This document shows, piece by piece, positions 5,589 to 63,704 of a stretch of 64,000 nt of DNA. The stretch comes from Antedon bifida (Eukaryota > Echinodermata > Crinoidea > Comatulida > Antedonidae), in the NCBI GenBank assembly GCA_963402885.1, contig OY727097.1, positions 12,648,001-12,712,000 of the forward strand. The letters are read 5' to 3'. Within the stretch, counting starts at the first letter, position 1. Every line of letters starts with the position of its first letter. The position numbers and the translations under genes are program-made. A model generated the notes under the pieces. That model worked only from the letters and a program-made list of their open reading frames with translations. It was not told where the DNA came from and searched no databases.

Positions 5589-5687
5589 ATTTTCCTGAAG
5601 ATCCAAATTAGCTCCAGCCTTGATCAAAATAGTGCAAACATCTGTGTGGCCTTTTACTGCAGCCACATGTAAAGGTGACGCTCCAGT
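5589..5687 (-). CDS. Ankyrin-repeat exon A (most downstream visible)
   Basis: A 99-bp phase 0/0 exon reading TGASPLHVAAVKGHTDVC, then TILIKAGANLDLQEN. The acceptor is TTTCAG|ACT and the donor is AAT|GTAAGTG. This copy has the most canonical ankyrin sequence (SPLHVAA, GHTDV). No further exon is recognisable between here and position 1, so the next downstream exon lies outside the window or belongs to a different domain type. Confidence 0.9.
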
Positions 5688-6479
5688 CTGAAATATTACA
5701 AACATTATGTTATAGTATGTTTCACTCTAAACAAAGTATTGTACTGAAATCAATGCGATGTGATCAATTAACAATAACGTTTTGGATTTAAGTATGCTAC
5801 ATTTTTAATTTAAATAAAGATTAATGTATTGTATACGTATACATTTTTCTTGCTTTTATAACTTTTATAGTACTTTATAAATGTAAAACATGTGTTTTTT
5901 TGCCTGAAATGTAAACACTTCATCCGGTAGTGCTAACTAGTCTCAGTGTAAATTATGATAAAGTGTTGACGGGAGGACGTTCTGCCGATAGAGGGCCAAA
6001 ATCACGTATTTTTTTCATTTATTTATTTATTCAATATATCGTAATCGCAGCACAATGCTGAATTAAAACAATATTAACATGATAATGTACACATCAAAAG
6101 GACAAAAAATCTAAAAAATTACAAATGTAAAAATATAAAGGTACAAAATTCAAGAATCGATAAAAATATACAAAATTGAAAATAGACAAAAAGTAGCACA
6201 AAAGCACGCGGGCAGAATTTGCACATGACGACCAATAAAACAAGAATCATTTGTCATTAAGGAGTTTGGTGAGAAAGGGTATAGCACTTTTGGCATATCT
6301 TTTGGTTCCTTCGGTTCGGTACCTTTATGCCAAATATGTATCTATATCGTTTTGAGAATGACAGAATTATTTTACTACTATACATTGGTTTGTAAATGAA
6401 TACGTTTATAAATACCTATTAAGTCATGTTAATGAAAATGAGAAGAAATTACAATAAAGGTGGGTGATTCCCATGAAAG

Positions 6480-7610
6480 TTAAAAAAAAAATATCTTTCG
6501 AGCACGGGGGATTAGAAATTCGTTGGATTTTCTAAGGAGCATACTGTGAGTACGAGAATTAATAGGAAACCACTCTTTGATGGAATTGGAACAGACGCGT
6601 CGATGTGCAAATTCTTTAAATAATTTAATTCTTCTCGTATCAAGCGTTTGAAGATTAGTACTTTTAAGTGCGTTAAGATATCTGTCGTACTTAGGTTCCA
6701 ATATAATCCGAAGCGCACTTTTTTTAATTCGTTCAATTATGAGAGACTGTTTTATAGTAATACAACTATGCCACGCTGTTGAGGCATTCTTGACAATAGG
6801 ACGAACGGACACCAAATCGCAAGCATAAACTCCAAAACGCTTGAGACGATTAAGTATATATAATCTACGGCTGCTATTAGAAATCATATTGCTAACAAGA
6901 GTATCCCATCTTAAATTTGCTTGTATAGGGATACCGAGAATTTTTATTTCATGCACAAAATCAAGCAATTTACCACCTATAACTAAGTTTGGAGGATCGG
7001 GAGGGTGTTTTTTAAAACAAACTTGCAAGGCTTTACATTTTGATGTATTTGGATTGAGTTTGAGAAAGTTGTGACTAGCCCAGTTATCTAGATCACAAAC
7101 GTCAGAATCAACAAAAGTGGGATCGCTAGCACGACGGACCTCAACAAGGCTAATATCGTCAACATACTTAAATTTAGATGATTGGGCGTTTACTGCAGCA
7201 TCGTTAATTATAACGTTAAAAATAATTGGTCCAAACTTAGTACCATGAGGGACGCCACAAGAGAGCGTTACCCATTCAGAGAGTTCGGAATGGTAACGAA
7301 CTCTTTGGCGTCTGTTGGTAAGAAAGTCAACTACCCAGGGCAATATTTCATTTCGAACACCAAGATCAAGAAGCTTTTGCATTGCAAGCGTATGATTGAC
7401 GGAATCAAAAGCCTTGATGAAGTCAGTCGCAACTAACGTACCGACTGTGTTTGGTTTGTCAGAGCCTTTATAAAGAGTATCCAACATCTCAACCAGACAA
7501 TGAGTTGTTGAAGATCCCTTAATTCCAACAAATTGATGATGATCAATTCGGGTGGGGGGGTTGGGGTGTGGAGATATCGTTACCGAACCATTTACAAACA
7601 AACTCCTCAT
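6480..7610 (-). pseudogene. LINE-A reverse transcriptase, C-terminal 376 codons
   Basis: The longest intact piece of LINE-A reverse transcriptase in the window. Palm motifs in order are TDFIKAFDSVNH (about residues 62-73), LSCGVPHGTKFGPIIFNVII (about 116-135) and catalytic YVDD (149-152). The CR1-type C-terminal segment TAWHSCITIKQS and the RRIKLFKEFAHR block follow. The first 20 or so residues are out of the ancestral frame because of the C-run shift. Fingers-domain sequence lies upstream in other frames. Confidence 0.85.
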
Positions 7611-8466
7611 AGACTTTTGCTAGAATCGACGTGAGGGATATAGGGCGAAGATTTGAAACAATAGCAGGTTTAAATTTAGGGATAGGTGTAATAGTGGCGT
7701 CTTCCACATTTGAGGAATGGAACCTTGGGCAAGGGATGCATTAAGAATACTAGTAACAGGGATACTAAATTCGCATGCAAATTCTTTAATCAAATTTCCA
7801 GGACGTCCATCGGGTCATGGGGCTTTTCTGGCGTTAATTAATAAGGCTGTGAACATTTCCCAGATCTGAATATATGGGGGTGGGGGGGGGGGGGGGGGTT
7901 GGTGGGGATGGGTGGGATGTAAGGTTGGAAGGTAGGCTGGTATCTTATGGCGTTAAATCGGGCGGCTATTATGTAAGATTGAGGCAAAACTCTGATTGAT
8001 TGCCTTAGCAATGGGGGACTCCGGGGACTGAAATGTTGGGAAGGGATTGTAATTTATTGCTCATAATTTGGATTCCTTTATGCCAATTGGATGGATCATT
8101 CTCTTTTAAATTTTAAAGGCGGTCTTGATAAAAGGATTTTTTGATTATTTGATAGAGAAAATGATTTTGTTTCTAAGGAAGCGCCACAGGTACGTTTTAT
8201 TTTGGCAAAAGGTTACTTGGCGCTTTTTAATGAGAATCTTAATTTCTGGGGTCATCCAAGGTTTGTCATTAGTATGCATTTTAGAAGTTTTTAGTGGAAA
8301 GTGAGTGTTAATAAAAAATTGACTGTACGATAAAATAAATCAGCCTTAGCTTGAGGTGACTTAGCTTCTAGGACTTCAACCCAAGATTGGCCAGTTATCC
8401 ACCTCCCAAATTCAAACATATGATGCTTAGGCATAGGTCTAAAAATATTTTTCCTAATACTACCCT

Positions 8467-9110
8467 TTAATTTAAGGCCGCTCGGAGCCCAAAAACAGTA
8501 TTATGGTCACTATTACAAATTGGTGCACAAACAACTGGTTTACAATAAACGTTATTAATGTTAGTAACAATAATGTCCAAAATAGCAAGTTCACGTGTAG
8601 GTGTCACGAACACTTGTTTCATAGAGTGAGCACGAAATGGGGTTGATATCAACTCTGTTAAAATCACCCAGTATGACGAAACCAATTTCCGGGTATATTG
8701 TCTTTAACTGATCAACAGTAAAAATTAAGTGGTCAACTAGCACTTGCTGATGTTCAGATTTTGGAGGTATATAAACAGCACAGACAGCTATCGCAGACAC
8801 CTTGCGTGGGAGTCGGTAAGGACGAACATACAGCCACAAACATTCAAGAACATTGGGAATAATAACATCTTTAATCGGCGTTGCATGCAGGGATATTGTC
8901 CGTTACGTAGACGGCAACTCCGCCACCAGTTTTTCCTCTCTTAATTTAGTGAAAACATTAAAGCCATCAATTGATAAGAAATCTGTCGAGATTGAATTCG
9001 ACTGCCATGTTTCTGTTACAACAGCTATATCAACAGGGCATATACAGTTATTCTTAATAACGGCTTCTAATTCGTCAATTTTGTTGTGTACGGAGCGAGT
9101 GTTTGTAAGT
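8467..9110 (-). pseudogene. LINE-A endonuclease domain, frameshifted
   Basis: Pieces in two frames give TNTRSVHNKIDELEAV, VVTETWQS, GGGVAVYVTDNIP, AVYIPPKSEHQQ, GFVILGDFN and TRELAILDIIVTN. These are the expected order of an apurinic/apyrimidinic-like endonuclease with catalytic-region motifs TETW and GDFN. A five-T instead of six-T run near 8930 breaks the frame relative to the other copies. Confidence 0.8.
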
Positions 9111-9114
9111 AAAA

Positions 9115-9950
9115 CAAGGCCATATACATGGCTGCAGTCGCGTGCTCAAGTTAGTGTTTACCGACCAACCGACCGACCGACCGACCAACCGACTGAAATT
9201 GCTGAACATTTTTAAAAATGTTGAAAATGTTTAAAAACATTTATGACAATGACAATGACAACTTCTTTTATTTTCTTTGTAAATAAAGTAAATAAATAAA
9301 CAACTAAATTAACATTTATAATTACAAAATTGATTTAACAAAGAAAAGGGGAAAATTCTTGAAGCAGATGCTTATATTTTTCAAATTTACACGTGCGTAG
9401 CCTGTCACTTTTTACGTGCTCGTATAACGTAATTTCGAGTTGTAAAGTGAATCAAATATGATGACATTAAAAAAAGGTTGTAAAACAGAAATCGGTCAAA
9501 AAGATTGCGTATTAACGTGCAGTGCGCGAGCAAAAATCTGCGCACTCATTTCAAATTTTTAAACGCTTAAAATTGACTGAAACGTACTCTAATTTCATTG
9601 AAAATAAATTTGACAATTTTGAAAATGTTAAGCGCGCGTACGCATGCGCTGTATGCGCTACGCACGTAATTGTATTGCCATAATATGATGAAAAATAACC
9701 TGAAATTTATGAGTACCAAATTTTATTTAATTGTGATTCATGCTTATGAAGATATGATTACAAACGTGATTTTGTTCAATCGTGCGTAGACCGCGTAATT
9801 TTTGATTGCGCACCGTGAAAAACATAACCACGTCAACAAATGGACTTAGCTAGATGAAACTTATATCAAGACAAGGCCATATACAAGTTAGTGTTTACCG
9901 ACCTACCGACCGACCAACCGACCGACATAGTGAGGTAGACCACCAACAGA
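9115..9950 (+). mobile_element. CCGACC composite element, copy 1
   Basis: A CAAGGCCATATACATGG start, a CCGA/CCAA tetramer run at 9160-9196, and about 670 bp of unique sequence (rich in GCGC words near 9630-9670). A second CAAGGCCATATACAAG plus tetramer run follows at about 9873-9930. This copy has lost the terminal hairpin (GACATAGTGAG joins straight to GTAGACC). No open frame. The same composite lies at 13764-14595, 20340-21158 and 49032-49836, and reversed at 56990-57694. Confidence 0.65.
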
Positions 9951-10543
9951 GACAGAGCTTTAAATATTATGCGTGGCCGTAAAAAAAACAGTCGCAAAAT
10001 ATTATTAGTGAAACGCGTAATAACATTGCAGTAATAATTATTAATTCATAAAGTTTATGACATAATCAAATTAAAAATGTATTACAAAGTGCGACAGACA
10101 GTTATTACAAAGTGCGACAGTACAAACGGGGTTTACAGATAGTAATTATATGCGATGTTTCAAGACAGTACTTATCAGGAATTGACCCTATTTGTGTTCT
10201 TTCTTGAATTTCGGGATCATTAATTTGCAAAATAATATTAGTTCTTTGGTGAGATCTTGCTTGGAAGTTCAAGGCTTTAAATGACCGCGACTTAAAAACT
10301 GTCTTAGATTGATCTTACTTCCCGATGTCAAGATTAACCTTGATGAGGCAACGGTGTTCCGAATCATGTGAGGGGTACATTGCAGTTCTCGACAATACAG
10401 TCATCTTCACTACAAAGTAGACCTGAGTTGGTTCATTTAGGTATGTTATTACCGATACGCCCTTTAAATTGTAAAATTAGCACTTTGTTTTAATCACACT
10501 GAATTATATAGCACATATTAGTATTAATGTTTGTAACACTTAC

Positions 10544-10642
10544 ATTCCTCTGAAGATCCAAATTAGCTCCAGCCTTGATCAAAATGGAGCAAACATCTGT
10601 TTGGCCGTTTTGTGCAGCCATATATAAAGGTGATGCCCCATC
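10544..10642 (-). CDS. Ankyrin-repeat exon B
   Basis: A 99-bp phase 0/0 exon reading DGASPLYMAAQNGQTDVC, then SILIKAGANLDLQRN. The acceptor is TTTCAG|GAT and the donor is AAT|GTAAGTG. The ankyrin GH pair is GQ here; otherwise the consensus positions (PL, AA, G, TDV, L, AGA, LDLQ) are kept. It lies in the second of two adjacent blocks of about 5.3 kb; exon A is the equivalent exon of the first. Confidence 0.88.
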
Positions 10643-10959
10643 CTGAAATATTACAAACATTATGTTATAGTATGTTTCACTCTAAACAAAGTATTGAACT
10701 GAAATCAATGCGATGTGATCAATTAACAATAACGTTATGGATTTAAGTATGCTACATTGTTAAATTAAATAAAGATTAATGTATTGTATACGTATACATT
10801 TGTCTTGCTTGTATAATTTTTATAGTACTTTATTAATGTAAAACAAGTGTTTCTTTGCCTGAAATGTAAACACTTCCGGTAGTGCTAACTAGTGTCAGTG
10901 TAAATTATGATAAAGTGTTGACGGGAGGACGTTCTGCCGATAGAGGGCCAACATCACGT

Positions 10960-13763
10960 TTTTTTTTTATTTATTTATTTTTTTTTTTATTCAATATATC
11001 GTAATCGCAGCACAAGGCTGAATTAAAACAATATTAACATGATAATGTACACATTAAAAGGACAAAAAATCTAAAAAGTTACAAATATAAAAATATAAAG
11101 GTACAAAATTCAAGAATCGATAAAAATATACAAAATTGAAAATAGACAAAAAGTAGCACACAAGCACGCGAGCAGAAATTGCACATGACGACCAATAAAA
11201 CATGAATCATTTGTCATTAAGGAGTTTGGCGAGAAAGGGTATAGCAGTTTTGGCATATCTTTCGGTTCCTTCGGTTCGGTACCTTTATGCCAAATATGTA
11301 TCTATATCGTTTTGAGAATGACAGAATTATTTTACTACTATACATTGGTTTGTAAATGAATACATTTATAAATACTTATCAAGTCATGTTAATGAAAATG
11401 AGAAGAAATTACAATAAAAAGTGGGTGATTCCCACGAAAGATAAACATATATCTTTCGGTTCGAGCACGGAGGATTAGAAATTCGTTGGATTTTCTAAGG
11501 AGCATAAAGTGAGAACGAGAATTAATAGGAAACCACTCTTTGATGGAATTGGAACAGACGCATCGATGTGCAAATTCTTTACATAATTTAATTCTTCTCG
11601 TAACCAAGCGTCTGAAGATTAATACTTTTAAGTGCGTTAAGATATGTGTCGTACTTAGGTCCCAATATAATCCGAAGCGCTCTTTTTTGAATTCGCTCAA
11701 TCATGAGAGACTGTTTTATAGTAATACAACTATGCCACGCTGTTGAGGCATACTCGACAATAGGACACCAAATCGCAAGCAGAAACTCCAAAACGCTTGA
11801 GACGATTGAGTATATATAATCTACGGCTACTATTAGAAATCATATTGCTAACAAGAGTATCCCATCTTAAATTTGCTTGTATAGGGATACCGAGAATTTT
11901 TATTTCATGCACAAAATCCAGCAATTTACCACCTATAACTAAGTTTGGAGGATCAACAAACTTGCAAGGCTTTACATTTTGATGGATTGAGTTTGAGAAA
12001 GTTGTGACTAGCCCAGTTATCTAGATCACAAACGTCAGAATCAACAAAAGTGGGATCGCTAGCACGACGGACCTCAACAAGGATAATATCGTCAACATAC
12101 TTAAATTTAGATGATTGGGCGTTTACGGCAGCATCGTTAATTATAACGTTAAAAATAATTGGTCCAAACTTAGTACCATGAGGGACGCCACAAGAGAGCG
12201 TTACCCATTCGTTCGGAATGGTAACGAACTCTTTGGCGTCGGAGATATCGTTACCGAACCATTTACAAACAAACTCCTCACATACTTTTGCTAGAATCGA
12301 CGTGAGGGATATAGGGCGAAGATTTGAAACAATAACAGGTTTAGATTTAGGGATAGGGGTAATAGTGGCGTCTTTCCACATTTGAGGAATGGAACCTTGG
12401 GCAAGGGATGCATTAGTAATACTAGTAACAGGGATACTAAATTCGCATGCAAATTCTTTAATCAATTTTACAGGAAGTTCATTGGGTCCTGGGGCTTTTC
12501 TGGCGTTAATTAATAAGGCTGTGAACATTTCCCAGATTTGAATCTGGGGGAGGGGGGAGATGTAAGGTTGGAAGGTAGGCTGGTAGCTTATGGCGTTCAA
12601 TCGGGCGGCTATTATGTGAGATTGAGGCAAAATTCTGATAGATTGCCTTAACTTTGGGGGACTCCGGGGACTGAAATGTTGGGATGGGATGGGATTGTAA
12701 TGTATTGCTCATAATTTGCATTCCTTTATGCCAATTGGATGGATCATTCTTTTTTAAATTTGAAAGGCGGTCTTGATAAAAGGATTTTTTGCTGATTTGA
12801 TAGAGAAAATGATTTTGTTTCTAAGGAAGCGCCACAGGTACGTTTTATTTTGGCAAAAGGCTACTTGGCGCTTTTTAATGAGAATCTTAATTTCTGGGTC
12901 ATCCAAGGTTTGTCATTAGTATGCATTTTAGAAGTTTTTAGTGGAAAGTGAGTATTAATAGCGCTATTGACTGTACGATAAAATAAATCAGCCTTAGCTT
13001 GGGGTGACTTAGCTTCTAGGACTTCCACCCAAGATTGGCCAGTTATCCACCTCCCAAATTCAAACATACGATGCTTAGGCAAAGGTCTAAAATACTTTTC
13101 CTAATACTACCATTTAATTTAAGGCCGCTCGGGGCCCAAAAAACAGTATTATGGTCATTATTACAAATTGATGCACCAACAACTGGTTTACAATAAACGT
13201 TATTAATGTTAGTAACAATAATGTCCAAAATAGCAAGTTCATGTGTAGGTGTCACGAACACTTGTTTCATAGAGTGAGCACAAAATGGGGTTGATATCAA
13301 CTCTGTTAAAATCGCCCAGTATGACGAAACCAATTTCCGGGTATATTGTCTTTAACTGATCAACATTAAAAATTATGTGGTCAACTAGCACTTGCTGATG
13401 TTCAGATTTTGGAGGTATATAAACAGCACAGACAGCTATCGCAGACACCTTGCGTGGGAGTCGTTAAGGATGAACATACAGCCACAAACATTCAAGAACA
13501 TTGAGAATAATAACATCTTTAATCGGCGTTGCATATGGGGATATTGTCCGTTACGTAGACGGCAACTCCGCCACCAGTTTTTTCCTCTCTTAATTTAGTG
13601 AAAACATTAAAGCCATCAATTGATAAGAAATCTGTCGAGATTGAATTCGACTGCCATGTTTCTGCTACAACAGCTATATCAACAGGGCATATACAGTTAT
13701 TCTTAATAACGGCTTCTAATTCGTCAATTTTGTTGAATACGGAGCGAGTGTTTGTAAGTAAAA
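10960..13763 (-). mobile_element. LINE-A copy 2
   Basis: Same organisation as copy 1, with endonuclease pieces at about 13239-13750, linker 12861-13333 and reverse transcriptase at about 11389-12630. It has lost 257 bp (equivalent to 7313-7569 of copy 1, removing part of the palm) and about 17 bp near 11955. Copy 3 has both of these losses too. The tail at 10960-10990 is T-rich on the plus strand with ATTT units. Confidence 0.85.
11953..12630 (-). pseudogene. LINE-A copy 2 reverse transcriptase, internally deleted
   Basis: One 225-codon frame joins fingers motifs (ARKAPGPNELPVKLIKEF, WKDATITPIPKSKP, SNLRPISLTS) to the palm motifs SCGVPHGTKFGPIIFNVI and YVDD. The FIKAFDSVNH segment has been removed by the deletion. 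It therefore lacks a catalytic aspartate region despite being open. Confidence 0.8.
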
Positions 13764-14595
13764 CAAGGCCATATACATGGCTGCAGTTGCGTGCTCAAGT
13801 TAGTGTTTAGCGACCAACCAACCGACCGACCGACCAACCGACCGAAACTGCTGAACATGTTTAAAAATGTTGAAAATGTTTAAAAACATTTATGATAATG
13901 ACAATGACAACTTCTTTTATTTTCTTTGTAAATAAAGTAAATAAATAAACAACAAAATTAACATTTATAATTACGAAATTGATTTAACAAAGAAAAGGGG
14001 AAAATTCTTGAAGCAGATGCTTATATTTTTTTAATTTACACGTGCGTAGCCTGTCACTTTTGACGTGCTCGTATAACGTAATTTCGAATTGTAAAGTGAA
14101 TCAAATATGATGACATTAAAGAAAGGTTGGAAAATAGAAATTGAGCAAAAAGATTGCGTATTAAAGTGCAATGCGCGTGCAAAAATCTGCGCACTCATTA
14201 CAATTTTTTAAACGCTTAAAATTGACTGAAACGTACTCTAATTTCATCGAAAATAAATTAGACAATTTTGAAAATTTTAAGCGCGCGTATGCATGCGTTA
14301 TATGCGCTACGCACGTAGTTGTATTGCCATATGAAATATGAGTACCAAATTTTATTTAATTGTGATTCATGCTTGTGAAGATATGATTACAAACGTGATT
14401 TCGTTAAATCGTGCGTAGACCGCGTATTTTTGATTGCGCACCGTGAAAAACATAACCACATCGAAAAATGGACTTAACTAGATGAAACTGATATCAAGAC
14501 AAGGCCATATACAAGTTAGTGTTTACCGACCGACCGACTGACCAACCGACCGACATAGTGAGCTGGAAAGTCGCGTTGCACGCGACTAAAAACAG
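13764..14595 (+). mobile_element. CCGACC composite element, copy 2
   Basis: Two CAAGGCCATATAC starts (13764 and about 14501), each followed by a CCGA/CCAA run. The right end is complete: GACATAGTGAGCTGG, then the hairpin AGTCGCGT-TGC-ACGCGACT and AAAAAC. The hairpin arms are a perfect 8-bp complement. Confidence 0.65.
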
Positions 14596-14679
14596 GTAGA
14601 CCACCAACGGTTTTGGGAGCGAAATGAAGTGTTCTTACCCAAATCCGCCAGATGCTTGAGAGATCGTGTTTACATATAT

Positions 14680-15285
14680 TACAAGATAACTTTAATGTCA
14701 AATAGTTTATCAACGAAAAATTTGAAATTGGTTTTTCTCATGGCAACTTAATAAATATAGAAATAGAATAAAATCAGTAAACTGTTAAAACACAAAGTAA
14801 AATACACAGAACTGTAAAATATGTACAGATAAGGATAAATGCTATCAGGTGTTCCCAGGTGTTTGAAAATACAATTATTTGTGTTTGTAGTCATTAGATT
14901 TAAATATACATTGTGGGACAAATGACAGTCGGTACCGTGCTGTCCGTAACCTTGATATTATTCTTAGTCTACACCCAGTACGATTAAACACGAAGGATGT
15001 ACGGAGTGGATGAGTATCATCGTTCATAATTGCAATTCTTTTCTGTTCCATTCGATTAACATACATTTCCATAACACTAGGCAGATTATTATCTCCATTT
15101 ATGCATTTCTTAGCTCTTTTAACTATGCGTTCAAATTGATTTTTATTGTATTCATACGTGTTACCATAGTAGCAAGTTAAGTTAAACATTGAAACACTTT
15201 GTATAACGGCTTTGTAGAAAAGTACAAGTATTTCTTCATTTACCCTAAAGTTTTTGAGTTTCCTAATGAAATACAAACGTATTAA
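14680..15285 (-). mobile_element. LINE-B fragment in block B (3' part only)
   Basis: Minus-strand C-terminal segment of LINE-B: FIRKLKNFRVNEEILVLFYK, NLTCYYGNTYEYNKNQ, RAKKCINGDNNLPSV and the LRTSFVFNRTGCRLR end, followed by 3' UTR and an ACAAGATA tail near 14680. The reverse transcriptase palm and the endonuclease are absent; the element stops abruptly at 15285 against intron sequence. Confidence 0.8.
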
Positions 15286-16540
15286 ATAATTCAATATTGT
15301 GTGTATAAATATACGTGGCGGGCGTTTATTAGAGGGTGGATGTTGCATATTACAAAGATGTTTTATGGGAGATAGAACCCGGGTCTCAATGGCGATACAG
15401 TACATGCAGAGTACCAGAACGTAACAGTTCCAGAAACGGATGAAACAAGAATTTAATTAAGTATGAAAGCAAACATACAACGGACAATGATTAATAGTTT
15501 CCCATCACCGTGATTAGTTCGGGATATCCGCGTTAACGCACACAGTGTATCAAACATCTTAAAATACGCACATACTCTCTGACCTGAAAAAAAACTATTT
15601 ATAGAGCTGAATTATGTATATTTTGTGTCATACAGTACGGTATTAAGTGCGAATAACCAATAAAGTTAATAGTGTATGTTTTCTTCGTAAAAAACCCAAT
15701 GTATTGTATGTGATATTTTTCTTGATAGTATAATATTCATTTGTTGGTGGATATGATGCATTCTGAAAGTCCTTTAAGGGTTTTGTTAAAAGAAACATCA
15801 ACAACGATTTAATTTTAAACAATGTTAATATATGTTTTGGTATCGGAAAATGTCATATTAAAAATACAAATTTTGATAGCTAAAAGATGTGTATTCAACT
15901 GTAACATTTCAGAGGACCCACAAATTTCAGGTCATTGTTAAAAGAAATATTGAAAAAAATATATTGCTTTTGAAAATTATAATTTGCATGCATATAACCT
16001 AAAATAGAAAAATGTATGAGTATAGTCTGTCTTTTAACTACTCATGATAAGTATACATTTTTGCTTGATTGGTTTTGTATCTTGTTGTTGAAAACGAAAG
16101 TGCGAAGGTTTTTGGCAGTTTTGTCACCAAGTGCGCGCGACAGGTATTACAAAGTGTTATGTGACGATTATTACAAAGTTCGAAAGGGAGTTTACAGATA
16201 GTTATTATATATGCGATGTTTTTTTTCTCAAGACAGTTTATCCGGAATCGACTCTATTTTTGTCCTTTCTTGAGTTTCGGGATCATAAATTTGATGAGAT
16301 CTTGCTTGGAGGTATCCAAGTCCAAGTAAATGACTGCGACTTTTAAACTATCTTTGATGGGGCAGCGTTGTTTCGAATCATGTGCAGTTCTCGACAATAC
16401 AGTTATCCTCACTACAAAGTAGACATGAGTTGGTTCATTTAGGTATGTTATTACCGATACGCCCTTTAAATTGTAAAATTAGCACTTTGTTTTAATCACA
16501 CTGAATTATATAGCACATATTAGTATTAATGTTTGTAACA
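15286..16540. repeat. Intron segment paired with 44300-45780
   Basis: Left part of duplication block C. Words such as GTACCAGAACGTAACAG, TTAACGCACACAGTGTA and GTTTTGTCACCAAGTGCGCG recur in the same order at 44560-45340, and part of it also at 39120-39470. Non-coding. It leads directly into exon C, as the partner leads into exon E. Confidence 0.75.
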
Positions 16541-16545
16541 CTTAC

Positions 16546-16644
16546 ATTTTTCTGAAGATCCACATTAGCTCCAGCCTTGATCAAAATAGTGCAAACATCT
16601 GTGTGGCCGTTTTGTGCAGCCACATATAAAGATGACGCTCCAGT
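16546..16644 (-). CDS. Ankyrin-repeat exon C
   Basis: A 99-bp phase 0/0 exon reading TGASSLYVAAQNGHTDVC, then TILIKAGANVDLQKN. The acceptor is TTTCAG|ACT and the donor is AAT|GTAAGTG. It is nearly identical to exon E, 29 kb away. The intron on its acceptor side carries a TTAA-flanked insertion (16771-17396) that exon E's intron lacks, so that insertion is younger than the C/E duplication. Confidence 0.88.
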
Positions 16645-16770
16645 CTGAAATATTACAAACATTATGTTATAGTATGTTTCACTCTAAACAAAGTATTGCA
16701 CTGAAATCAATACGATGTGATCAATTAACAATAACGTTATGGATTTAAGTATGCTACATTGTTAAATTAA

Positions 16771-17396
16771 AGACCCCTTACCTGCAATTTTGGACGTTTT
16801 TTGGAAAATAATACATATATATCACTTTAAAAACATTAAACCATGTCATTCCTTGTCTTAAATGTACGTTTTATGGTAAATTATGATAAAAAGTGAGAAA
16901 CAATGCACTACCTAAGTAGCTCGCGGCGATCGACCTCTCGTGGACGGTCTTAGGCCTAGCCTAGCTAGGCTTAGTTTTGTAGGCCTAGCTGGTAAACATC
17001 GGTAACGTACGAACATCGTACGCTAGCTATATACCTAGCCTGACGTTGTATAGTTGCTGCATTAATTGTCTTTCTATTTTTGCCAGACTCCGTTGATACA
17101 AATTGGGGAAAACCCGGTATTTTCGCTGAAAAGTTAGGAGTCTTCCATTTGTTTTGGCCTCACGATCGATCGAAAAGTGGGCGAATTACAGGTGAAAAAC
17201 AAAAATATCAATCCGCGCGCAATGCATTTTGGGATTTATAGCGGGCCGCTATAATTATTAGAATCGACTTATTTTTCACATTTTTAACCGTTTAAAGACG
17301 AAAAAAGTTATCGCAATAGGACCATATAGTATTATTTTTACATTAAATATAGTTTGTGATCTTAAATTAGATCTAAAAAACGTAGGGAAGGGGGCT
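16771..17396. mobile_element. TTAA-flanked short transposon (piggyBac-type MITE candidate), 626 bp
   Basis: TTAA at 16767-16770 and 17397-17400. The paralogous introns at about 10770 and 46010 show the intact site (TTAAATTAAATAAAG). Ends AGACCCCTTACCT and, reversed, AGCCCCCTTCCCT form an imperfect inverted repeat. No transposase frame is present. The interior holds several TAGGCCTAG words near 16950-16990. Confidence 0.7.
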
Positions 17397-17592
17397 TTAA
17401 ATAAAGAGTAATGTATTGTATACGTATACATTTGTCTTGCTTGTATAACTTTTATAGTACTTTATAAATGTAAAACAAGTGTTTCTTTGCCTGAAATGTA
17501 AACACTTCATCCGGTAGTGCTAACTAGTCTTAGTGTAAATTATGATAAAGTGTTGACGGGAAGACGTTCTGCCGATAGAGGGCCAAAATCAC

Positions 17593-20339
17593 GTTTTTTT
17601 TAAATGTATTTATTTATTTATTCAATATATCGTAATCGCAGCACAAGGCTGAATTAAAACAATATTACCATGATAATGTACACATCAAAAGGACAAAAAA
17701 TCTAAAAAAATTACAAATATAAAAATATAAAGGTACAAAATTAAAGAATCGATAAAAATATACAAAATTAAAAATAGACAAAAAGTAGCATACAAGCACG
17801 CGAGCAGAATTTGCACATGACGACCAATAAAACAAGAATCATTTGTCATTAAGGATTTTGGCGAGAAAGGGTATAGCACTTTTAGCATATCTTTCGGTTC
17901 CTTCGGTTCGGTACCTTTATGCCAAACATGTATCTATATTGTTTTCAGAATGACAGAATTATTTTACTACTATACATTGGTTTGTAAATGAATACGTTTA
18001 TAAATACCTATTAAGTCATGTTAATGAAAATGAGAAGAAATTACAATAAAAGTGGGTGATTCCGACGAAAGATAAAAAAAATATCTTTCGGTTCGAGCAC
18101 GGTGGATTAGAAATTCGTTGGATTTTCTAAGGAGCATACTGTGAGAACAAGAATTAATAGGAAACCACTCTTTGATGGAATTGGGACAGACGCATCGATG
18201 TACAAATTCTTTAAATAATGTAATTCTTCTCGTATCAAGCGTCTGAAGATTAGTACTTTTAAGTGCGTTAAGATATGTGTCGTACTTAGGTTCCAATATA
18301 ATCCGAAGCGCTCTTTCTTTAATTCGCTCAATCATGAGAGATTGTTTTATAGTAATACAACTATGCCACGCTGTTGAGGCATACACGAAAATAGGACAAA
18401 CGTACCCCACATAAACGGACACCAAATCGCCTGCAGAAACTCCAAAACGCTTGAGACGATTAAGCATATATAATCTACGGCTACTATTAGAAATCATATT
18501 GCTAACAAGAGTATCCCATCTTAAATTTGCTTGTATAGGGATACCGAGAATTTTTATTTCATGCACAAAATCCAGCAATTTACCACCTAAAACTAAGTTT
18601 GGAGGATCAACAAACTTGCAAGGCTTTACATTTTGATGGATTGAGTTTGAGAAAGTTGTGACTAGCCCAGTTATCTAGATCACAAACGTCAGAATCAACA
18701 AAAGTGGGATCGCTAGCACGACGGACCTCAACAAGGATAATATCGTCAACATACTTAAATTTAGATGATTGGGCGTTTACGGCAGCATCGTTAATTATAA
18801 CGTTAAAAATAATTGGTATAAACTTAGTACCATGAGGGACGCCACAAGAGAGCGTTACCCATTCGTTCGGAATGGTAACGAACTCTTTGGCGTCGGAGAT
18901 ATCGTTACCGAACCATTTACAAACAAACTCCTCACATACTTTTGCTAGAATCTACGTGAGGTATATAGGGCGAAGATTTGAAACAATAGCAGGTTTAAAT
19001 TTAGGGATAGGGGTAATAGTGGCGTCTTTCCACATTTGAGGAATGGAACCTTGGGCAAGTGATGCATTAAGAATACTAGTAACAGGGATACTAAATTCGA
19101 ATCCAAATTCTTTAATCAATTTTCCAAAAAGTCCATAGGGGGTCCAGGGGCTTTTCTGTAAACATTTGGTTGGAAGGAAGGCTGGTAGCTTATGGCGTTC
19201 AATCAGGCGGCTATTATGTGAGATTGAGGGGACTTTGGGGGACTCCGGGGACTGAAATGTTGGAATGGGATTGTAATTTATTGCTCATAATTTGGATTCC
19301 TTTATGCCAACTGGATGGATCATTCTTTTCTAAATTTGAAAGGCTGTCTTGATAAAAGGATTTTTTGCTAATTTGATTGAGAAAATGATTTTGTTTCTAA
19401 GGAAGCGCCACAGGTACGTTTTATTTTGGCAAAAGGCTACTTGGCGCTTTTTAATGAGAATCTTAATTTCTGGGGTCATCCAAGGTTTGTCATTAGTATG
19501 CATTTTAGAAGTTTTTAGTGGAAAGTGAGTGTTAATAGCGCTATTGACTGTACGATAAAATAAATCAGCCTTAGCTTGGGGTGACTTAGCTTCTAGGACT
19601 TTAACCCAAGATTGGCTAGTTATCCACCTACCAAATTCAAACATACGATGCTTAGGCAGGTCTAAAAATACTTTTTCTAATATTACCATTTAATTTAAGG
19701 CCGCTCGGGGCCCAAAAAACAGTATTATGGTCACTATTACAAATTGGTGCACCAACAACTGGTTTACAATAAACGTTATTAATGTTAGTAACAATAATGT
19801 CCAAAATAGCAAGTTCACGTGTAGGTGTCACGAACACTTGTTTCATAGAGTGAGCAGGAAATGGGGTTGATATTAACTCTGTTAAAATCGCCCAGTATGA
19901 CAAAACCAATTTCCGGGTATATTGTCTTTAACTGATCAACAGTAAAAATTATGTGGTCAACTAGCACTTGCTGATGTTCAGATTTTGGAGGTATATAAAC
20001 AGCACAGACAGCTATCGCAGACACCTTGCGTAGGAGTCGGTAAGGACGAACAAACAGCCACAAACATTCAAGAACATTAGGAATAATAACATCTTTAATC
20101 GGCGTTGCATGCAGGGATATTGTCCGTTACGTAGACGGCAATCCCGCCACCAGTTTTTTCCTCTCATAATTTAGTGAAAACATTAAAGCCATCAATTGAT
20201 AAGAATTCTGTCGAGATTGAATTCGACTGCCATGTTTCTGTTACAACAGCTATATCAACAAATCATATACAGTAATTCTTAAAAACGGCTTCTAATTCGT
20301 CAATTTTGTTGAGTACGGAGCGAGTGTTTGTAAGTAAAA
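17593..20339 (-). mobile_element. LINE-A copy 3
   Basis: Minus-strand LINE-A with C-terminal frame at 18021-18578 (185 codons), linker and endonuclease frames at 19330-20063, and tail at 17593-17625. It shares the 257-bp and 17-bp deletions with copy 2, but over about 18948-19120 it shares base changes with copy 4 (see findings). It also lost sequence around 19150 in the fingers region. Confidence 0.85.
18021..18578 (-). pseudogene. LINE-A copy 3 reverse transcriptase C-terminus
   Basis: 185 open codons from MLDFVHEIKILGIPIQANL through TAWHSCITIKQS, PKYDTYLNALKS and RTERYFFYLS. This is the thumb/C-terminal region after the palm, with no catalytic residues. The intact VYVGYVCPIFVYASTAW stretch shows what copies 1 and 2 lost near 6790 and 11765. 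Confidence 0.8.
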
Positions 20340-21158
20340 CAAGGCCATATACATGGCTGCAGTCGCGTGCTCAAGTTAGTGTTTACCGACCAACCAACCA
20401 ACCGACCGACCGACCAACCAACTGAAATTGCTGAACATTAAAAATGTTGAAAATGTTTAAAAGCATTTATGACAATGACAATGACAACTTCTTTCATTTT
20501 CTTTGTAAATAAAGTAAATAAATTAACATTTATAATTACAAAATTGATTTAACAAAGAAAAGGGGAAAATTCTTGAAGCATTTCCCCTTTTTTTTAATTT
20601 ACACGTGCGTAGCCTGTCACTTTTGACGTGTTCGTATAACGTAATTTCGAATTGTAAAGTGAATCAAATATGATGACATTAAAGAAAGGCTGTAAATCAA
20701 AAATCGGGCAAAAAGATTGCGTAATAACGTGCAGTGCGCGTGCAACGTTCTGCGCACTCATTACAATTTTTTAAACGTTTAAAATTGACTGAAACGTACT
20801 CTAATTTCATCGAAAATAAATTAGACAATTTTGAAAATTGTATGCGCGCGTACGCATGCGTTATATGCGCTACGCACGTAGTTGTATTGCCATAATGATA
20901 AAAAATGACCTAAAATTTATGAGTACCAAATTTTATTTAATTGTGATTCATGCTTGTGAAGATATGATTACAAACGTGATTTCGTTAAATCGTGCGTAGA
21001 CCGCGTAATTTTTGATTGCGCACCGTGAAAAACATAACATCGAAAAATGAACTTAGCTAGATGAAACTAATATCAAGACAAGGCCATATACAAGTTGGTG
21101 TTTACCGACCGACCGACCGACATAGTGAGCTGTAAAGTCGCGTTGCACGCGACTAAAA
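20340..21158 (+). mobile_element. CCGACC composite element, copy 3
   Basis: Same two-part structure as copy 2: tetramer runs at about 20386-20422 and 21107-21122, GCGC-rich interior, and the terminal perfect hairpin AGTCGCGT-TGC-ACGCGACT at about 21134-21152 followed by AAAAAC. Confidence 0.65.
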
Positions 21159-47565: not shown

Positions 47566-48201
47566 CTACGTGAGGTATATAGGGCGAAGATTTGAAACAA
47601 TAGCAGGTTTAAATTTAGGGATAGGGGTAATAGTGGCGTCTTTCCACATTTGAGGAATGGAACCTTGGGCAAGTGATGCATTAAGAATACTAGTAACAGG
47701 GATACTAAATTCGAATCCAAATTCTTTAATCAATTTTCTAAAAAGTCCATCGGATCCTAGGGCTTTTCTGGCGTTAATTAATAAGGCTGTGAACATTTCC
47801 CAGATTTGAATCTGGGGGGGATGTAAGGTTGGAAGGTAGGCTGGTAGCTTATGGCGTTCAATCAGGCGGCTATTATGTGAGATTGAGGCAAAACTCTGAT
47901 TGATTGCCTTAGCAATTTCAAAGTGGTCACTTTGGGGGACTCCGGGGACTGAAATGTTGGAATGGGATTGTAATTTATTGCTCATAATTTGGATTCCTTT
48001 ATGCCAATTGGATGGATCATTCTTTTCTAAATTTGAAAGGCTGTCTTGATAAAAGGATTTTTTGCTGATTTGACAGAGAAAATGATTTTTTTTTCTAAGG
48101 AAGCGCCACAGGTACGTTTTATTTTGAAAAAAGGCTACTTGGCGCTTTTTAATGAGAATCTTAATTTTTGGGGTCATCCAAGATTTGTCATTAGTATGCA
48201 T
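47566..48201 (-). pseudogene. LINE-A copy 4 linker and reverse-transcriptase fingers, 211 codons
   Basis: MHTNDKSWMTPKIKILIKKR, a basic linker, NARKALGSDGLFRKLIKEF, GSIPQMWKDATITPIPKFKP and NLRPIYLT. It stops just before the palm; the next segment (FTKAFDSVNH) is in the frame at 47269-47502. Confidence 0.8.
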
Positions 48202-49031
48202 TTTAGAAGTTTTTAGTGGAAAGTGAGTGTTAATATAGCGCTATTGACTGTACGATAACATAAATCATTCTTACCTTGGGGTGACTTAGCTTCTAGGACT
48301 TCAACCCAAGATTGGCCAGTTATCCACCTCCCAAATTCAAACATACGATGCTTAGGCATAGGTCTAAATATACTTTTCCTAATACTACCATTTAATTTAA
48401 GGCCGCTCGGGGCCCAAAAAACATAATGATGGTCACTATTACAAATTGGTGCACCAACAACTGGTTTACAATAAACGTTATTAATGTTAGTAACAATAAT
48501 GTCCAAAATAGCAAGTTCACGTGTAGGTGTCACGAACACTTGTTTCGTAGAGTGAGCACGAAATGGGGTTGATATCAACTCTGTTAAAAACGCTCAATAT
48601 GACGAAATCAATTTCCGGGTATATTGTCTTTAACTGATCAACAGTAAAAATTATGTGGTCAACTAGCACTTGCTGATGTTCAGATTTTGGAGGTATATAA
48701 ACAGCACAGACAGCGATCGCAGACACCTTGCGTGGGAGTCGTTAAGGACGAACAAACAGCCACAAACATTGGGAATAATAACATCTTTAATCGGCGTTGC
48801 ATGCAGGGATATTGTCCGTTACGTAGACGGCAACCCCGCCACCAGTTTTTTCCTCTCTTAATTTAGTGAAAACATTAAAGCCATCAATTGATAAGAAATC
48901 TGTCGAGATTGAATTCGACTGCCATGTTTCTGTTACAACAGCTATATCAACAGGGCATATACAGTAATTCTTAAAAACGGCTTCTAATTCGTCAATTTTG
49001 TTGAGTACGGAGCGAGTGTTTGTAAGTAAAA

Positions 49032-49836
49032 CAAGGCCATATACATGGCTGCAGTCGCGTGCTCAAGTTAGTGTTTACCGACCGACCGACCAACCGACTG
49101 AAATTGCTGAACATGTTTAAAAATTTTGAAAATGTTTAAAAGCATTTATGACAATGACAATGACAACTTCTTTCATTTTCTTTGTAAATAAAGTAAATAA
49201 ATTAACATTTATAATTACAAAATTGATTTAACAAAGAAAAGGGGAAAATTCTTGAAGCAGATGCTTATATTTTTTTAATTTACACGTGCATAGCCTGTCA
49301 CTTGTCACGACGTGTTCGTTTAACGTAATTTCGAATTGTAAAGTGAATCAAATATGATGACATTAAAGAAAGGCTGTAAAACAGAAATCGGGCAAAAGGA
49401 TTACGTATTAACGTGCAGTGCGCGTGCAAAAATATGCGCACTCATTACAATTTTTTAAACGCTTAAAATTGACTGAAACGTACTCTAATTTCATCGAAAA
49501 TAAATTAGACAATTTTGAAAATTTTAAGCGCGCGTACGCATGCGTTATATGCGCTACGCAGGTAGTTGTATTGTCATATGATAAAAAATGACCTAAAATT
49601 TATGAGTACCAAATTTTATTTAATTGTGATTCATGCTTGTGAAGATATGATTAAATCGTGCGTAGACCGCGTAATTTTTTATTGCGCACCGTGAAAAACA
49701 TAACAACATCGAAAAATGGACTTAGCTAAATGAAACTGATATCAAGACAAGGCCATATACAAGTTAGTGTTTACCGACCGACCGACCAACCGACCGACAT
49801 AGTGAGCTGTAAAGTCGCGTTGCACGCGACTAAAAA
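49032..49836 (+). mobile_element. CCGACC composite element, copy 4
   Basis: Same layout as copies 2 and 3, with shorter tetramer runs (about 49079-49098 and 49784-49797) and the intact terminal hairpin AGTCGCGT-TGC-ACGCGACT at about 49813-49831. Confidence 0.65.
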
Positions 49837-51920
49837 CAGGTAGACCACCAACGGTTCTGGGAGCGAAATGAAAAGTGTTCTTATCCAAATCCGCCAGATG
49901 CTGGAGAGATCGTGTTTACATATAATATTAAATTGGCATTAGGCCTACGTATCATGGAGTTGGCATCACGAAAATTAGCGATATGTCCATAGCACGAATA
50001 AAACAACACGTATTCTACGCTTAGTACCACCACGTTGGCCTCGTTTTCTTCGTTTAACCCGCTTGCAGGTGGTACGCAAATAGTTCGTCGAGTTCACGTT
50101 GTTCCACATGTGTACTACGCTGCTCCCGTGGTATGCATAACATTTAAACAAAATACAAGATACAAGATAACGTTATTGTCAAATAGTTCATCAACGAAAA
50201 ATTTGATTGGTTTTTCTCATGGCAACTTAATATAAAAATAGAATAAAATCAGTAAAATGTTAAAACACAAAGTAAAATACACAGAACTGTAAAATATGTA
50301 CAGATAAGGATAAATGCTATCTGGTGTTCCCAGGTGTTCGAAAATACAATTATTTGTGTTTGTCGTCATTATATTTAAATATACATTGTGGGACAAGTGA
50401 CAGTCGGTACTGTGCTGTCCGTAACCTTGATATTACTCTTAGTCTACACCCAGTACGATTAAACACGAAGGATGTACGGAGTGGATGAGTATCATCGTTC
50501 ATAATTGCAATTCTTTTCTGTTCCATTCGATTAACATACATTTTCATAACACTAGGCAGATTATTATCTCCATTTATGCATTTCTTAGCTATTTTAACTA
50601 TGCGTTCAAATTGATTTTTATTGTATTCATACGTGTTACCATAGTAGCAAGTTAAGTTAAACATTAAAACACTTTGTATAACGGCTTTGTAGAAGAGTAC
50701 AAGTATTTCTTCATTTACCCTAAAGTTTTTGAGTTTCCTAATGAAATTCTTTGCGAACAGTTGTTGCAGCCTGGTCTGTCCAGGTAAGTTTCCCATCAAT
50801 CATAGTTCCTAAATATTTATATTTGTCAATATTTCAACAACTGCTCCGTCGATTATAAGTGGTTCAATTTGAGGTTTTTTAATTCTGAAATCAATAATTA
50901 ATTCTTTAGTTTTCTTAATATTAAGATCTAAGTATAGAGTGTAAATAAAATGGGGGATAATACACAGCCTTGTGGGGCGCCTGTGCTGACTTTGCATACT
51001 TTAGATTGCGCATCTTCTATCTTAACATACTGTGGTCGTTCCCTAAGGTAACTGATAAGCCATAACAACATTTTAGTATTGACATTTAATTTATACAATT
51101 TATCGATAAGTAAGTGAGACTGGATACAATTGAAAGCACTGGAAAAGCCAATAAAAGTTGATCTGATGAAAGATCTTGGCACATCAAGGTGTTTATATAC
51201 ACTATCAGTATACACCATCACTGCATCATCTACACCACTGTTTTTGACTATATGCAAACTGATTAACATCATTATCAATATCATCATTCGACATAATCAT
51301 TTTAAGCATTATTCTTTCCAAACATTTCATTGGATTTGGTGTCAAAGCTATGGGACGGTAATCATTTAAGGAAGTAATTTGTTTAGTTTTAGGCAATGGT
51401 GCTATTAATGAAATCTTCCAAATAGTTGGGATAACTCCAGTATCAATAGTACGTTGGAAAAAACCTGCCCGACTAAAGTTTCATCAATACTTAAAATAGT
51501 GGACTCTTTATTGGTTTCGTTTTCTAATGACCTTATGTTATCGCTAAAATCATGTTTATCAAATCGGCAGTAAAATTCATTTAGGTCATTTGCGAGTTTA
51601 AAATTAAAATTGTTAGTATTACTATTATCATTACTTTCTTTACAGTTAAAACCAGACATTGTTCGCATTGCCTTCCATGCTCCGCGGCTATCACAGTTCA
51701 ATTTATTTTCAAGAGTTCTACCATCTTCAGCTTTACCAGATTTGATTAACTCGATTTCTTTTTGTTTCAGTTTGACTACTTTGTTAATGTTATCTGCAAA
51801 AGCCCGTTGTTTCTCAATTAATAGCAGTCTTATGTTTCTCGACATCTATGGTTTGTTATTTGCGTACACTTTCTTGTATCACATTTCCAACACAATATTT
51901 TACTTAATTATATTTTTACA

Positions 51921-53033
51921 ATGTTGCCAAACCCTACTACAGCTTATCTAAGTGAACTTAATAGGATGTTTTTTAATTTTGTCTGGAAGGGAAAGGACAA
52001 AATCAAAAGAAATAAGCTAATTAGAGAGTATAAGGATGGCGGAATTAACATGATCGATATCTTCAGTTACATAAAGGCAGTTAAGATTAGTTGGATGCGA
52101 AGAATTCGTAACAACACTGGAATTCTCAATGTAGTTTTCAACAAAATATGCCATGGTAAAAAAACTGAATCAATCTTTGAATACGGCTCATGCATGATTC
52201 AGAGGCTGTCGAAAAATATGAACAATTTGTTCTGGAGAGATGTTCTCCATTCATGGTCCGAGTTTATTGCTATTCATAATTCAACAGCATCTGCAAACTA
52301 TAACGTACTAAAAGAACCAATATGGTTGAATGATTCGATTCTAATCAATAACTTTCCAATTTTTTACACCAATTATTATGAGTGTGGCGTAAGGTTCATA
52401 AATGATTTAATCTCGGATAGAGGAACCTTGCTTAGTTATGAAAACTTCAAAACACACTATAAGGTGAAAAAAAATAATTTCCTTAAATACTATGGATTAA
52501 TTGATGCAATTATAACTAAATACCCTTCTTTGGGTACAGAAATAAATACTAAATTACAAAACCCAATAAATTTACCCATACTTGAAACCATAACCAAACC
52601 CCAAACAGGATGTAAAGCTTTTTATAGTAAGTTTATTCAAAACAAAGACTTTAACTGTAAAGCTAAACAAAAGTGGGGTAAAATCTTAAATGTTGAATTC
52701 TCGGAACATGAATGGGAAGGAATTAATGTTGCAACTTTTAATGTGACCGACAACATAAAATTACGATGGTTTCAATACAGACTTAACAACAGTATCCTCA
52801 CAACTAAAGTCTACCTTAAGATTATTAAGTATATCGACGAAGATAACTGCTCTTTTTGTAACATTAGAAGAGAAACAGTTTATCATTTATTCTGTAAATG
52901 TAATATCAGTATTGTAATTTTTTTTTTCAATGGTGTTCTCGAAATCTTGATATTCGCATATGTGTTTCGGAAAGTGAACTGCTTTTTAGTAATACACCAT
53001 CCAATAGGATTAATTTACTTTTGTCAATACTAA
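51921..53033 (+). pseudogene. L1/Tx1-type polymerase C-terminal region, 370 codons open
   Basis: It begins at ATG near the truncation point: ELNRMFFNFVWKGKDKIKRN (about residues 11-30), then REYKDGGINMIDIFSYIKAV and KISWMRRI. These are the standard block that follows the palm in L1/Tx1 polymerases. CSFCNIRRETVYHLFCKC (about residues 314-331) is the Cys/His-rich motif near the usual C-terminus; residues after it are probably a frameshift tail. Endonuclease and catalytic palm are missing, so no enzyme is encoded despite the intact frame. Confidence 0.8.
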
Positions 53034-58306: not shown

Positions 58307-58399
58307 GTTTGGTGCCAATTTAGCACCTGCCTTGAGCAAAATAGTGCAAACATCTGTGTGGCCGTTTTGTGAAACAAAATGTAAAGGTGACAATCCATC
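58307..58399 (-). pseudogene. Decayed ankyrin-repeat exon F
   Basis: The acceptor (TTTCAG|GAT) and the first part are intact and read DGLSPLHF, then QNGHTDVCTILLKAGAKL in frame. After the codon pair for KL the expected DLQDK end is missing: several bases are deleted, the donor GTAAGTG has become CTAAGTG, and the frame runs directly into TAA. The usual AA of the first helix is also changed to VS. The flanking intron is homologous to that of exons A-E, so this was once a normal unit. It is most likely skipped in splicing. If retained it would truncate the protein. A cryptic donor further along could rescue it, but none is obvious. Confidence 0.75.
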
Positions 58400-62225: not shown

Positions 62226-62299
62226 CATCAGCATAAGAAAGCAAAATAAAAATACAAAGATGAATAGAGACGAAGGTGCGCACCAACTATCTCACATTT

Positions 62300-63050
62300 A
62301 CGATCAGCTTCTGACGACGGCTGGTCCCCTAGGCTACACAACAAAAACATCTAGTGGCTGGAAAGGACACCAGTCGGCGTCATAACGCATCATAGCAACT
62401 GAAGATGTCAAGCTGACAGCTAGACGAAACTGTCTTGCCAACGTAAGTTTTATTGGTTTACTATCAAAGAACTACTTATATTATTACAGCATCAGGTGTA
62501 TAGTTTCCATATCTCTTTGTTAAGACAGGGATAACAAGTGATCATCACATTATATGCTTACTAGTTGGCCTTTTTTTCTACCAAACAAAGCCTGATATTT
62601 TCAAAGTACAAAATGCAATTTCTGAGGACCTCAGCTCTATTTTGTTCAAAATGTTCTTAACTCAGCCCCAATCAAACCTGCAATTTGTTTTAGACTGGAT
62701 GATAAAGATTTCGATAATTAGGAAACAATCGTCCGTATTATACATAACGTTATGAAACACGTATATAAATATACATACAGTAGTTAAGTTTGCTCATACG
62801 TACGGTCATCACAAGTGAGATAGACAGCCATTTCACGACAGTAATTGTAATAATATGATGAACATGATAAGAGAATTGGAAAATAAGTTAGTTTTATTGT
62901 GTTACTTATTTGAGTTTATGTTGTGTTTGAAACTATAGGCTTTGCTTGCTTTGGTCGTCTCAACGTTGAGTAGACTACGGGTACTAACATGAATTGAAGG
63001 CACTAGCTAACTTTATTATAGTTACTAATTGTTTTGGATGTGTTCCTGTC
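62300..63050. other. Unrecognised intronic sequence
   Basis: No exon, RNA gene or repeat paralogue recognised. Confidence 0.35.
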
Positions 63051-63393
63051 CTAAATACAAAGAAAGTAAATACGCAACAAAACATAATTCAACATTTTCA
63101 AAAAACTTTATATTTTTAGTGAATACCTTTAATTGTTATTGTAATTTTATACCTTTTCAATGTATTTTACTGTAATATTATTGTATACATTCAATTTTTA
63201 AGGTATTTTCATACATTTTAAACATATTATCTTTTATGACTGTATTTTTTCAATATTTTATCTCATGCTTTCTGCGCTTATGGTTTTATTAACATTTTAT
63301 ACCATTTTAAATCCATTTTATGTGTATTTTCCTTGTTATCTTGTATACATATGTTGACAATGATTTTGAACAAATAAAATGAATGAATGAATA
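63050..63393 (+). mobile_element. Probable LINE 3' end with GAAT tail
   Basis: T-rich non-coding sequence ending AACAAATAAAATGAATGAAT, a simple-repeat tail typical of non-LTR elements. No coding part is present, so the family is unknown. Confidence 0.4.
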
Positions 63394-63605
63394 CGTATTT
63401 CATCCTACACAAAAATAAGAATGTGCGTGTTTAATAATTTGAACACGTTTATAAACAATACTAATGCAATAAATATAATCCTTAGCCTATTTCACATTGT
63501 ATGCATTCACGTATCATGTACAATAATACCATAATAATGCCATTTTTTTAATGAATGTTTAATTCAAATAAATAATCCACAAGTTTATAAACACACACGG
63601 CCTAC

Positions 63606-63704
63606 CTTATTCTGAACATTCACATCCGATCCTGCTATATGCAGAATATTGCAAATATCTGTACAACCTTCTTGTGCAGCACAATGCAACGGCGCATTTC
63701 CATC
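63606..63704 (-). CDS. Ankyrin-repeat exon G (most upstream, most diverged)
   Basis: Reads in phase 0 as 33 residues beginning DGNAPLHCAAQEG, then CTDICNIL, and ending DVNVQNK. This matches the ankyrin pattern G-PLH-AA--G---I---L---G-DVN-Q. The acceptor is CAG|GAT on the minus strand, copied from ctg at 63705-63707. The donor is AAG|GTAGG, copied from 63601-63605. Unlike the other exons it has Cys at the usual GH position (GCTD instead of GHTD), and its flanking introns do not resemble those of the other six. It is therefore the oldest paralogue here, or belongs to a different part of the array. It is too short to call as a stand-alone ORF; the splice sites and repeat periodicity support it. 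Confidence 0.85.

Follow-up and report, generated by a model that had tools for sequence, protein, structure and literature searches.

The window analysed here is a 64,000-nucleotide stretch of the genome of the crinoid Antedon bifida (C10:12648001-12712000; C plus a number denotes a contig, C10 being OY727097.1). It contains six intact 99-bp exons, each encoding one ankyrin (ANK) repeat, which probably form the middle of a single predicted ANK-ROC-COR-Death gene; about 28 such genes lie along 5 Mb of the contig. This array as a whole is rather likely to be a tandem family of some 28 predicted ANK-ROC-COR-Death (ROCO) genes that would act as cytoplasmic immune sensors. We read 264 kb of this contig (C10:12558001-12822000, the window extended by 90 kb on its lower side and by 110 kb on its upper side) and searched a genome of 315.6 Mb on 27 contigs.

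Single-repeat ankyrin exons and their blocks

An earlier note on this stretch had proposed six 99-bp phase-0 exons of one ankyrin repeat each, and an exon scan recovered all six on the minus strand, far above background. The scan required an AG, an ankyrin-like 99 bp open in phase 0 and a GT, and covered both strands, with the reversed sequence as a control. Across the 264 kb it found nine ankyrin exons, all on the minus strand and with scores of 83–195; the next best candidate scored −8 on either strand and −21 on the reversed sequence. Six of the nine fall in the window, and the three other intact exons lie outside it, where the note had advised looking for more, as does much of the C10 array described below. 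One exon, 45788, was tested singly against Pfam and matched Ank at 28.6 bits (cut-off 21.1). The ankyrin exons of the window and the exon-plus-intron blocks found by block comparison are as follows, in window positions.

5589-5687, minus strand: single-repeat ankyrin exon, 99 bp, phase 0/0 (exon scan)
10544-10642, minus strand: single-repeat ankyrin exon, 99 bp, phase 0/0 (exon scan)
16546-16644, minus strand: single-repeat ankyrin exon, 99 bp, phase 0/0 (exon scan)
40346-40444, minus strand: single-repeat ankyrin exon, 99 bp, phase 0/0, DGWSPL type (exon scan)
45788-45886, minus strand: single-repeat ankyrin exon, 99 bp, phase 0/0 (exon scan and Pfam Ank)
58316-58399, minus strand: broken copy of an ankyrin exon, lacking the 3′ end and the donor and running into a stop
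63606-63704, minus strand: single-repeat ankyrin exon, 99 bp, DGNAPL type; coding exon 3 of the gene model
5299-9934, minus strand: exon-plus-intron block 1, with a reverse-transcriptase remnant
10245-14681, minus strand: exon-plus-intron block 2
16273-22500, minus strand: exon-plus-intron block 3; the upper end is the limit of the compared stretch
45480-51059, minus strand: exon-plus-intron block 4; the lower end is the limit of the compared stretch

The blocks around exons 5589, 10544, 16546 and 45788 are 89–93% identical across 3.8–5.5 kb, whereas those of exons 40346 and 58316 resemble these four main blocks at 75–86% across just 0.4–1.4 kb, and each other at 84% across 0.8 kb. The flanks of exon 63606 were absent from the 20 repeat families listed of at least 60 in the window, and this exon was left out of the block comparison. 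Because of these block identities, the proposal that exons were duplicated together with their introns stands for four of the seven copies over kilobases, and for two more by short flanks only.

Open frames of long interspersed nuclear element (LINE) type lie inside the blocks. Two block copies of one such frame were tested: that at 6480-7616 matches RVT_1, and a Pfam search at 0.001 with that at 46586-47383 gave nothing. LINE-type remnants occur in the window at 6480-7616, 22541-23068, 23726-24304 and 51828-53033; their profile matches are to reverse transcriptase (one above and one below the cut-off) and to endonuclease and zf-RVT (both below it).

A predicted ANK-ROC-COR-Death gene

The exons can be placed in a predicted minus-strand gene of ∼118 kb. 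Its first exon (C10:12726817-12726867) consists of an ATG and 16 further codons, followed by a GTAGGT donor in phase 0. In the predicted N-terminal join, this exon leads to an HGE exon at 12723275, then to the six intact exons of the window and finally to a DGNT exon at 12626026. As the earlier note had expected of exons sharing one reading frame, the six join without a stop, here inside a frame of 281 residues with eight ankyrin repeats. The best PDB sequence match of the repeat stack is the ankyrin-1/2 chimera 5y4d (7e-146); only the repeats match this structure, whereas the second half of the predicted C10 gene would be ROC-COR-Death.

We reached this second half through diverged open frames that recur between genes, after a nucleotide comparison of the inter-gene gaps had returned mostly multi-copy sequence and pieces resembling SLC22 transporters. 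Downstream on the same strand, at C10:12621311-12609155, lie open frames that recur, diverged, in the next gene and include a P-loop exon, COR-A-like exons and three Death exons. The Death exons score 34.9–43.6 bits in Pfam (cut-off 22.6). Joining seven ROC/COR exons by hand where their phases agree yields a frame of 474 residues, in which COR-A is found at 8.5e-16 (58.6 bits, cut-off 35.3); single exons stay below the cut-off. By eye, C10:12621144-12621311 encodes VGLENVGKTST, which we take to be the ROC P-loop, and 12618876-12619054 encodes WDFGGQPIYH, presumably a DxGGQ-type switch II. The joined ROC-COR frame had a single match in PDB, at an E value of 0.99.

The C10 array and copies elsewhere

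The same exon order recurs across C10 11.3–16.35 Mb, and every array match listed is on the minus strand. Within the array we counted 25 first exons and 28 HGQ-type, 24 DGNA-type and 18 DGNT-type exons. In 25 of the 28 genes a first exon precedes the HGQ exon by 2–12 kb, and in 22 of those 25 the distance is 1.9–3.9 kb; the step from HGQ to DGNA is mostly 7–12 kb, and Death exons follow 9–20 kb past the class A ROC exon. A 35-base pattern of the middle exons matched the genome 106 times (105 reverse, one forward), and its reversed control not once. Among 100 pattern matches listed, 99 are on C10, both known broken copies included, and one is on C1. Paralogous genes show 0–10 middle ankyrin exons each; these are lower bounds, because only the best 150 of 503 candidates were scored. 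The ROC exons sort into three classes: A in 13 of the 28 genes, B in seven and C in four, with none detected in the other four and one ROC exon in each of the 24.

The spread of matches on one strand across 5 Mb was initially read as a single giant gene with hundreds of ankyrin repeats. This is scarcely credible, since 24 of the 28 units have their own ROC exon and 25 their own first exon. Moreover, pieces of opposite-strand sequence resembling SLC22 transporters lie in both inter-gene gaps read. These pieces are on the plus strand, outside the window and between ankyrin genes (C10:12601139-12602431, 12753217-12755363 and 12783215-12784452), and one of the three appears frameshifted. They carry a LPETANRKLPDTMDE stretch, which we assume to mark the resemblance to SLC22; the one piece tested scored 17 bits with Pfam MFS_1, below the cut-off.

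A 5-Mb repeat array is also hard to assemble, and false copies could have arisen by assembly error. We regard this as very improbable: the four window blocks differ by 7–11% and exon-plus-flank pairs by 14% on average, an argument that does not extend to very similar copies elsewhere in the array, and the ordered exon types recur in 28 units at variable spacing.

Related exons occur far beyond this contig. The ROC exon of the window gene has at least 144 genome matches (best 150 of 247 candidates scored), and an exon of another ROC class at least 133 (best 150 of 233 candidates), partly in the same places. ROC-type exons have thus been greatly multiplied in the genome; among the matches listed, clusters beyond C10 lie on C1, C7, C8, C12, C15 and C16, and C7 holds a sister array. 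On C8, chiefly at 3.36–3.73 Mb and 14.0–17.2 Mb, a hand count gave ∼50 class B ROC matches among those listed. At C13:5081111-5083494, the ROC P-loop exon has 14 short matches, many of them at 126-bp spacing; these form a small P-loop-like tandem array.

Separate histories of the ankyrin and ROC halves

Similarity among the ankyrin exons conflicts with similarity among the ROC exons. Class A ROC exons are 38–40% alike to class B and 70–72% alike to class C, whereas the last ankyrin exons of A, B and C genes are all 78–88% alike to that of the window gene. Middle exons do not sort by ROC class: nearest neighbours belong to the same class for 28.2 of 52 labelled exons, against 26.1 after shuffling of gene labels (P 0.33; 12 of the 64 exons have no class label). 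Exon pairs that are 99.7% identical, flanks included, are shared between A and B genes. The ankyrin exons thus appear, from their sequences, to act as one pool across genes with three diverged ROC classes. The nearest relative lies inside the same gene for eight of 64 exons (shuffled mean 3.6, largest 13) and in another gene for 56. Growth of the array as the earlier note pictured it is therefore borne out in that blocks were duplicated, but whole-gene duplication or exchange between genes seems to weigh more than growth within a gene.

The sister array extends this conflict. Between C7 and C10, class A ROC exons differ at 2–5 of 156 nucleotides, with one to two synonymous differences in ∼36 sites (three exons against three), whereas an ankyrin exon ∼4 kb upstream of ROC differs at 45 of 99 nucleotides. 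In this one ankyrin pair, synonymous difference is near saturation (20.8 of 22.3) and non-synonymous difference amounts to 24.2 of 76.7. Because the synonymous difference in ROC is low, its similarity suggests recent exchange beyond constraint alone. The simplest account would be recombination or conversion bounded in the intron between the ankyrin and ROC exons, and unequal crossing-over or gene conversion may be the mechanism. Given the conflicting similarities, the binding and signalling halves would evolve as separable cassettes.

Selection on the ankyrin exons and weight of the evidence

We examined 70 ankyrin exons: 60 fetched from the 107 C10 hits outside the 264-kb stretch and ten inside it. 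Sixty-eight keep the 99 bp, the frame and the AG/GT borders, and two are broken (58316 and one in L091). Sixty-six passed the script threshold; two HGQ-type exons fell below it yet are intact. Substitutions were counted in 64 exact-length exons (52 distinct), leaving out 63606, 12626026, the HGQ type and the broken copies.

Non-synonymous difference peaks at repeat positions 1, 3, 7, 8, 11 and 32. We assumed positions 1, 3, 11, 12, 31 and 33 (in the repeat numbering used here) to be those of DARPin design, a set fixed beforehand. Amino-acid changes at these six exceed those in random sets of six (P 0.014), and the six change three to four times faster than intron sites. Pairwise proportions of non-synonymous over synonymous differences (pN/pS), uncorrected for shared ancestry, are 1.7–2.2 in pairs with eight or fewer differences, 0.79–0.88 in more distant pairs and 0.91 overall. 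At conserved positions the ratio is 0.54–0.62; these positions were picked after seeing the data, and the figure is therefore no test. Diversifying selection on the ankyrin exons is likely but unproved.

Several observations weigh against the reading of the array as a family of ROCO immune sensors. Pfam Roc is below threshold in the one exon with a match (16.3 against 27 bits), and no Roc match was found at 0.01 in the joined frame. Automatic chaining over all eleven C-terminal exons gave no solution. Best-site phases disagree at two junctions, from the last ankyrin exon into ROC and from the first ROC exon into the second, and we found no acceptor at the first Death exon, where COR would join Death; additional unseen exons are therefore required in the second half, and one further ROC exon may be absent from the model. 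The exon sample was drawn from the best hits and favours intact copies. In the exons, synonymous change likewise exceeds the intron rate, and the overall ratio of non-synonymous to synonymous substitution rates (dN/dS) is ∼1.06 among the 64 exons. At the DARPin positions dN/dS is 1.1–1.4, not above synonymous change (P 0.18–0.48), and at the remaining positions it is 0.87–0.92, so constraint inside the array is weak. The immune function, finally, would be assigned by analogy with other families.

The same figures would suit an array that is mostly decaying, in which a few working genes sit in a neutral macro-satellite of duplicated blocks shaped by duplication and not by selection for diversity. 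The near-neutral overall ratio, an exon divergence that resembles that of the flanking introns, the two broken exons, stops in two of the 25 first exons and the LINE remnants in introns all fit such an array. We nonetheless consider it unlikely. Nearly all the exons examined are intact, though in a sample that favours good hits, and the lack of indels in the 64 aligned exons is no independent evidence, as they were picked for exact length. The saturated synonymous sites of the single C7–C10 ankyrin pair, set against its far lower non-synonymous difference, point to long-term constraint. In addition, 33 ROC exon copies from C10 and C7 (92–100% alike) and 23 Death exon copies (81–100% alike) are free of stops.

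Other features of the window and genome

At window positions 27842-28373, a 21-bp unit is repeated in tandem, with 19 overlapping in-register copies and several open frames on both strands. A tRNA-like gene at 29812-29883 is called as Asp with the anticodon ATC, which we believe to be atypical for an Asp tRNA; it is perhaps a tRNA-derived element. Elsewhere in the genome, mitochondrial COX1 at C27:10587-11927 reads sensibly with AGR as serine, that is, in code 5, judging by what we take to be its conserved residues and code usage. This code suggests a bilaterian invertebrate other than a tunicate, and not a cnidarian. A search for GH6 gave no match either, which is weak evidence against a tunicate, as its controls matched nothing.

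Relation to known systems and proposed function

NLR clusters in plants and animals are tandem families that combine a diversifying repeat half with a conserved nucleotide switch. NLRs pair leucine-rich repeats (LRRs) with NB-ARC or NACHT, whereas the C10 genes would pair ANK with ROC-COR. Among animal ROCO proteins, DAPK1 carries ankyrin repeats. It belongs to ROCO group 3 and has ROC-COR and Death domains, with a kinase before ROC-COR, according to one study (PMC6337361). The predicted C10 gene is like DAPK1 in its ROC-COR and C-terminal Death domains, here three Death exons. Unlike DAPK1, its 17-residue ATG exon joins the ankyrin exons in phase and the model holds no kinase, though no separate kinase search was made. 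In Aplysia, ROC-COR is joined to TLR- and MyD88-like proteins, according to another study (PMC9334734). A further paper describes, for several animals, Death-fold proteins that carry ankyrin repeats and have expanded in a lineage-specific manner; these are TRADD-N families and not ROCO (PMC8195603).

Known animal ROCO proteins also serve non-immune roles (PMC6337361), and the array may be an ordinary tandem family whose products, adaptor proteins for instance, serve development or housekeeping without immune sensing. We hold this possible but doubtful. By analogy, the copy number, the arrays on several contigs and the Death domains resemble immune receptor families, as would a recognition half that diverges between C7 and C10 while the signalling half stays alike.

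The closest system that we found is the brown-algal LRR-ROCO family of Ectocarpus and Saccharina, for which one study (PMC11378527) describes 9–47 ROCO genes per surveyed alga. According to this study, exons of one LRR each undergo shuffling, alternative splicing and positive selection, and the proteins are candidate immune receptors (PMC11378527). In both systems every repeat has its own symmetric exon, uniform in length, upstream of ROC-COR, and such exons appear to be shuffled without loss of frame. The algal genes, as given there, have 72-bp phase-2 LRR exons in a simple LRR-ROC-COR order, are mostly dispersed and have splice variants, and PAML indicates positive selection at four sites on the binding face (PMC11378527). 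The A. bifida genes, in contrast, have 99-bp phase-0 ankyrin exons, Death exons and megabase tandem arrays, and positive selection is suggested. The C10 genes would thus work like the algal system yet fall outside it, because their repeats are ankyrin and not LRR. In the titles and abstract openings of the open-licence papers listed we found no animal arrays of single-repeat-ankyrin-exon ROC-COR-Death genes; an earlier description is possible.

Exon-plus-intron blocks have been duplicated, and nearly identical exons occur in separate genes. Whenever such a block is duplicated, lost or exchanged, the repeat stack is altered while the frame stays intact, since each ankyrin exon begins and ends in phase 0. 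Duplication of such exons, which the earlier note saw as a route to binding diversity, is plausible as one. The ankyrin stack would bind varied ligands, binding would set the ROC-COR GTPase switch, and the Death domains might recruit a cell-death, NF-kB-type or inflammatory pathway. By analogy, the likely role would be intracellular sensing of microbes or altered self. A bolder version, which we think improbable, is an animal cytoplasmic receptor system whose genes recombine single-repeat ankyrin exons from one interchangeable, megabase-sized pool and combine them with several exchangeable GTPase-Death effector cassettes, to yield individual- or cell-specific binding repertoires; such recombination might occur in the germ line, perhaps also with variable splicing or in somatic cells. 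If expressed, the predicted family would parallel, in an animal, the LRR-ROCO receptor candidates of brown algae, combining interchangeable one-repeat exons with a GTPase switch and with Death domains. One could then test how an invertebrate builds varied intracellular recognition, and whether its genes trade repeat exons.

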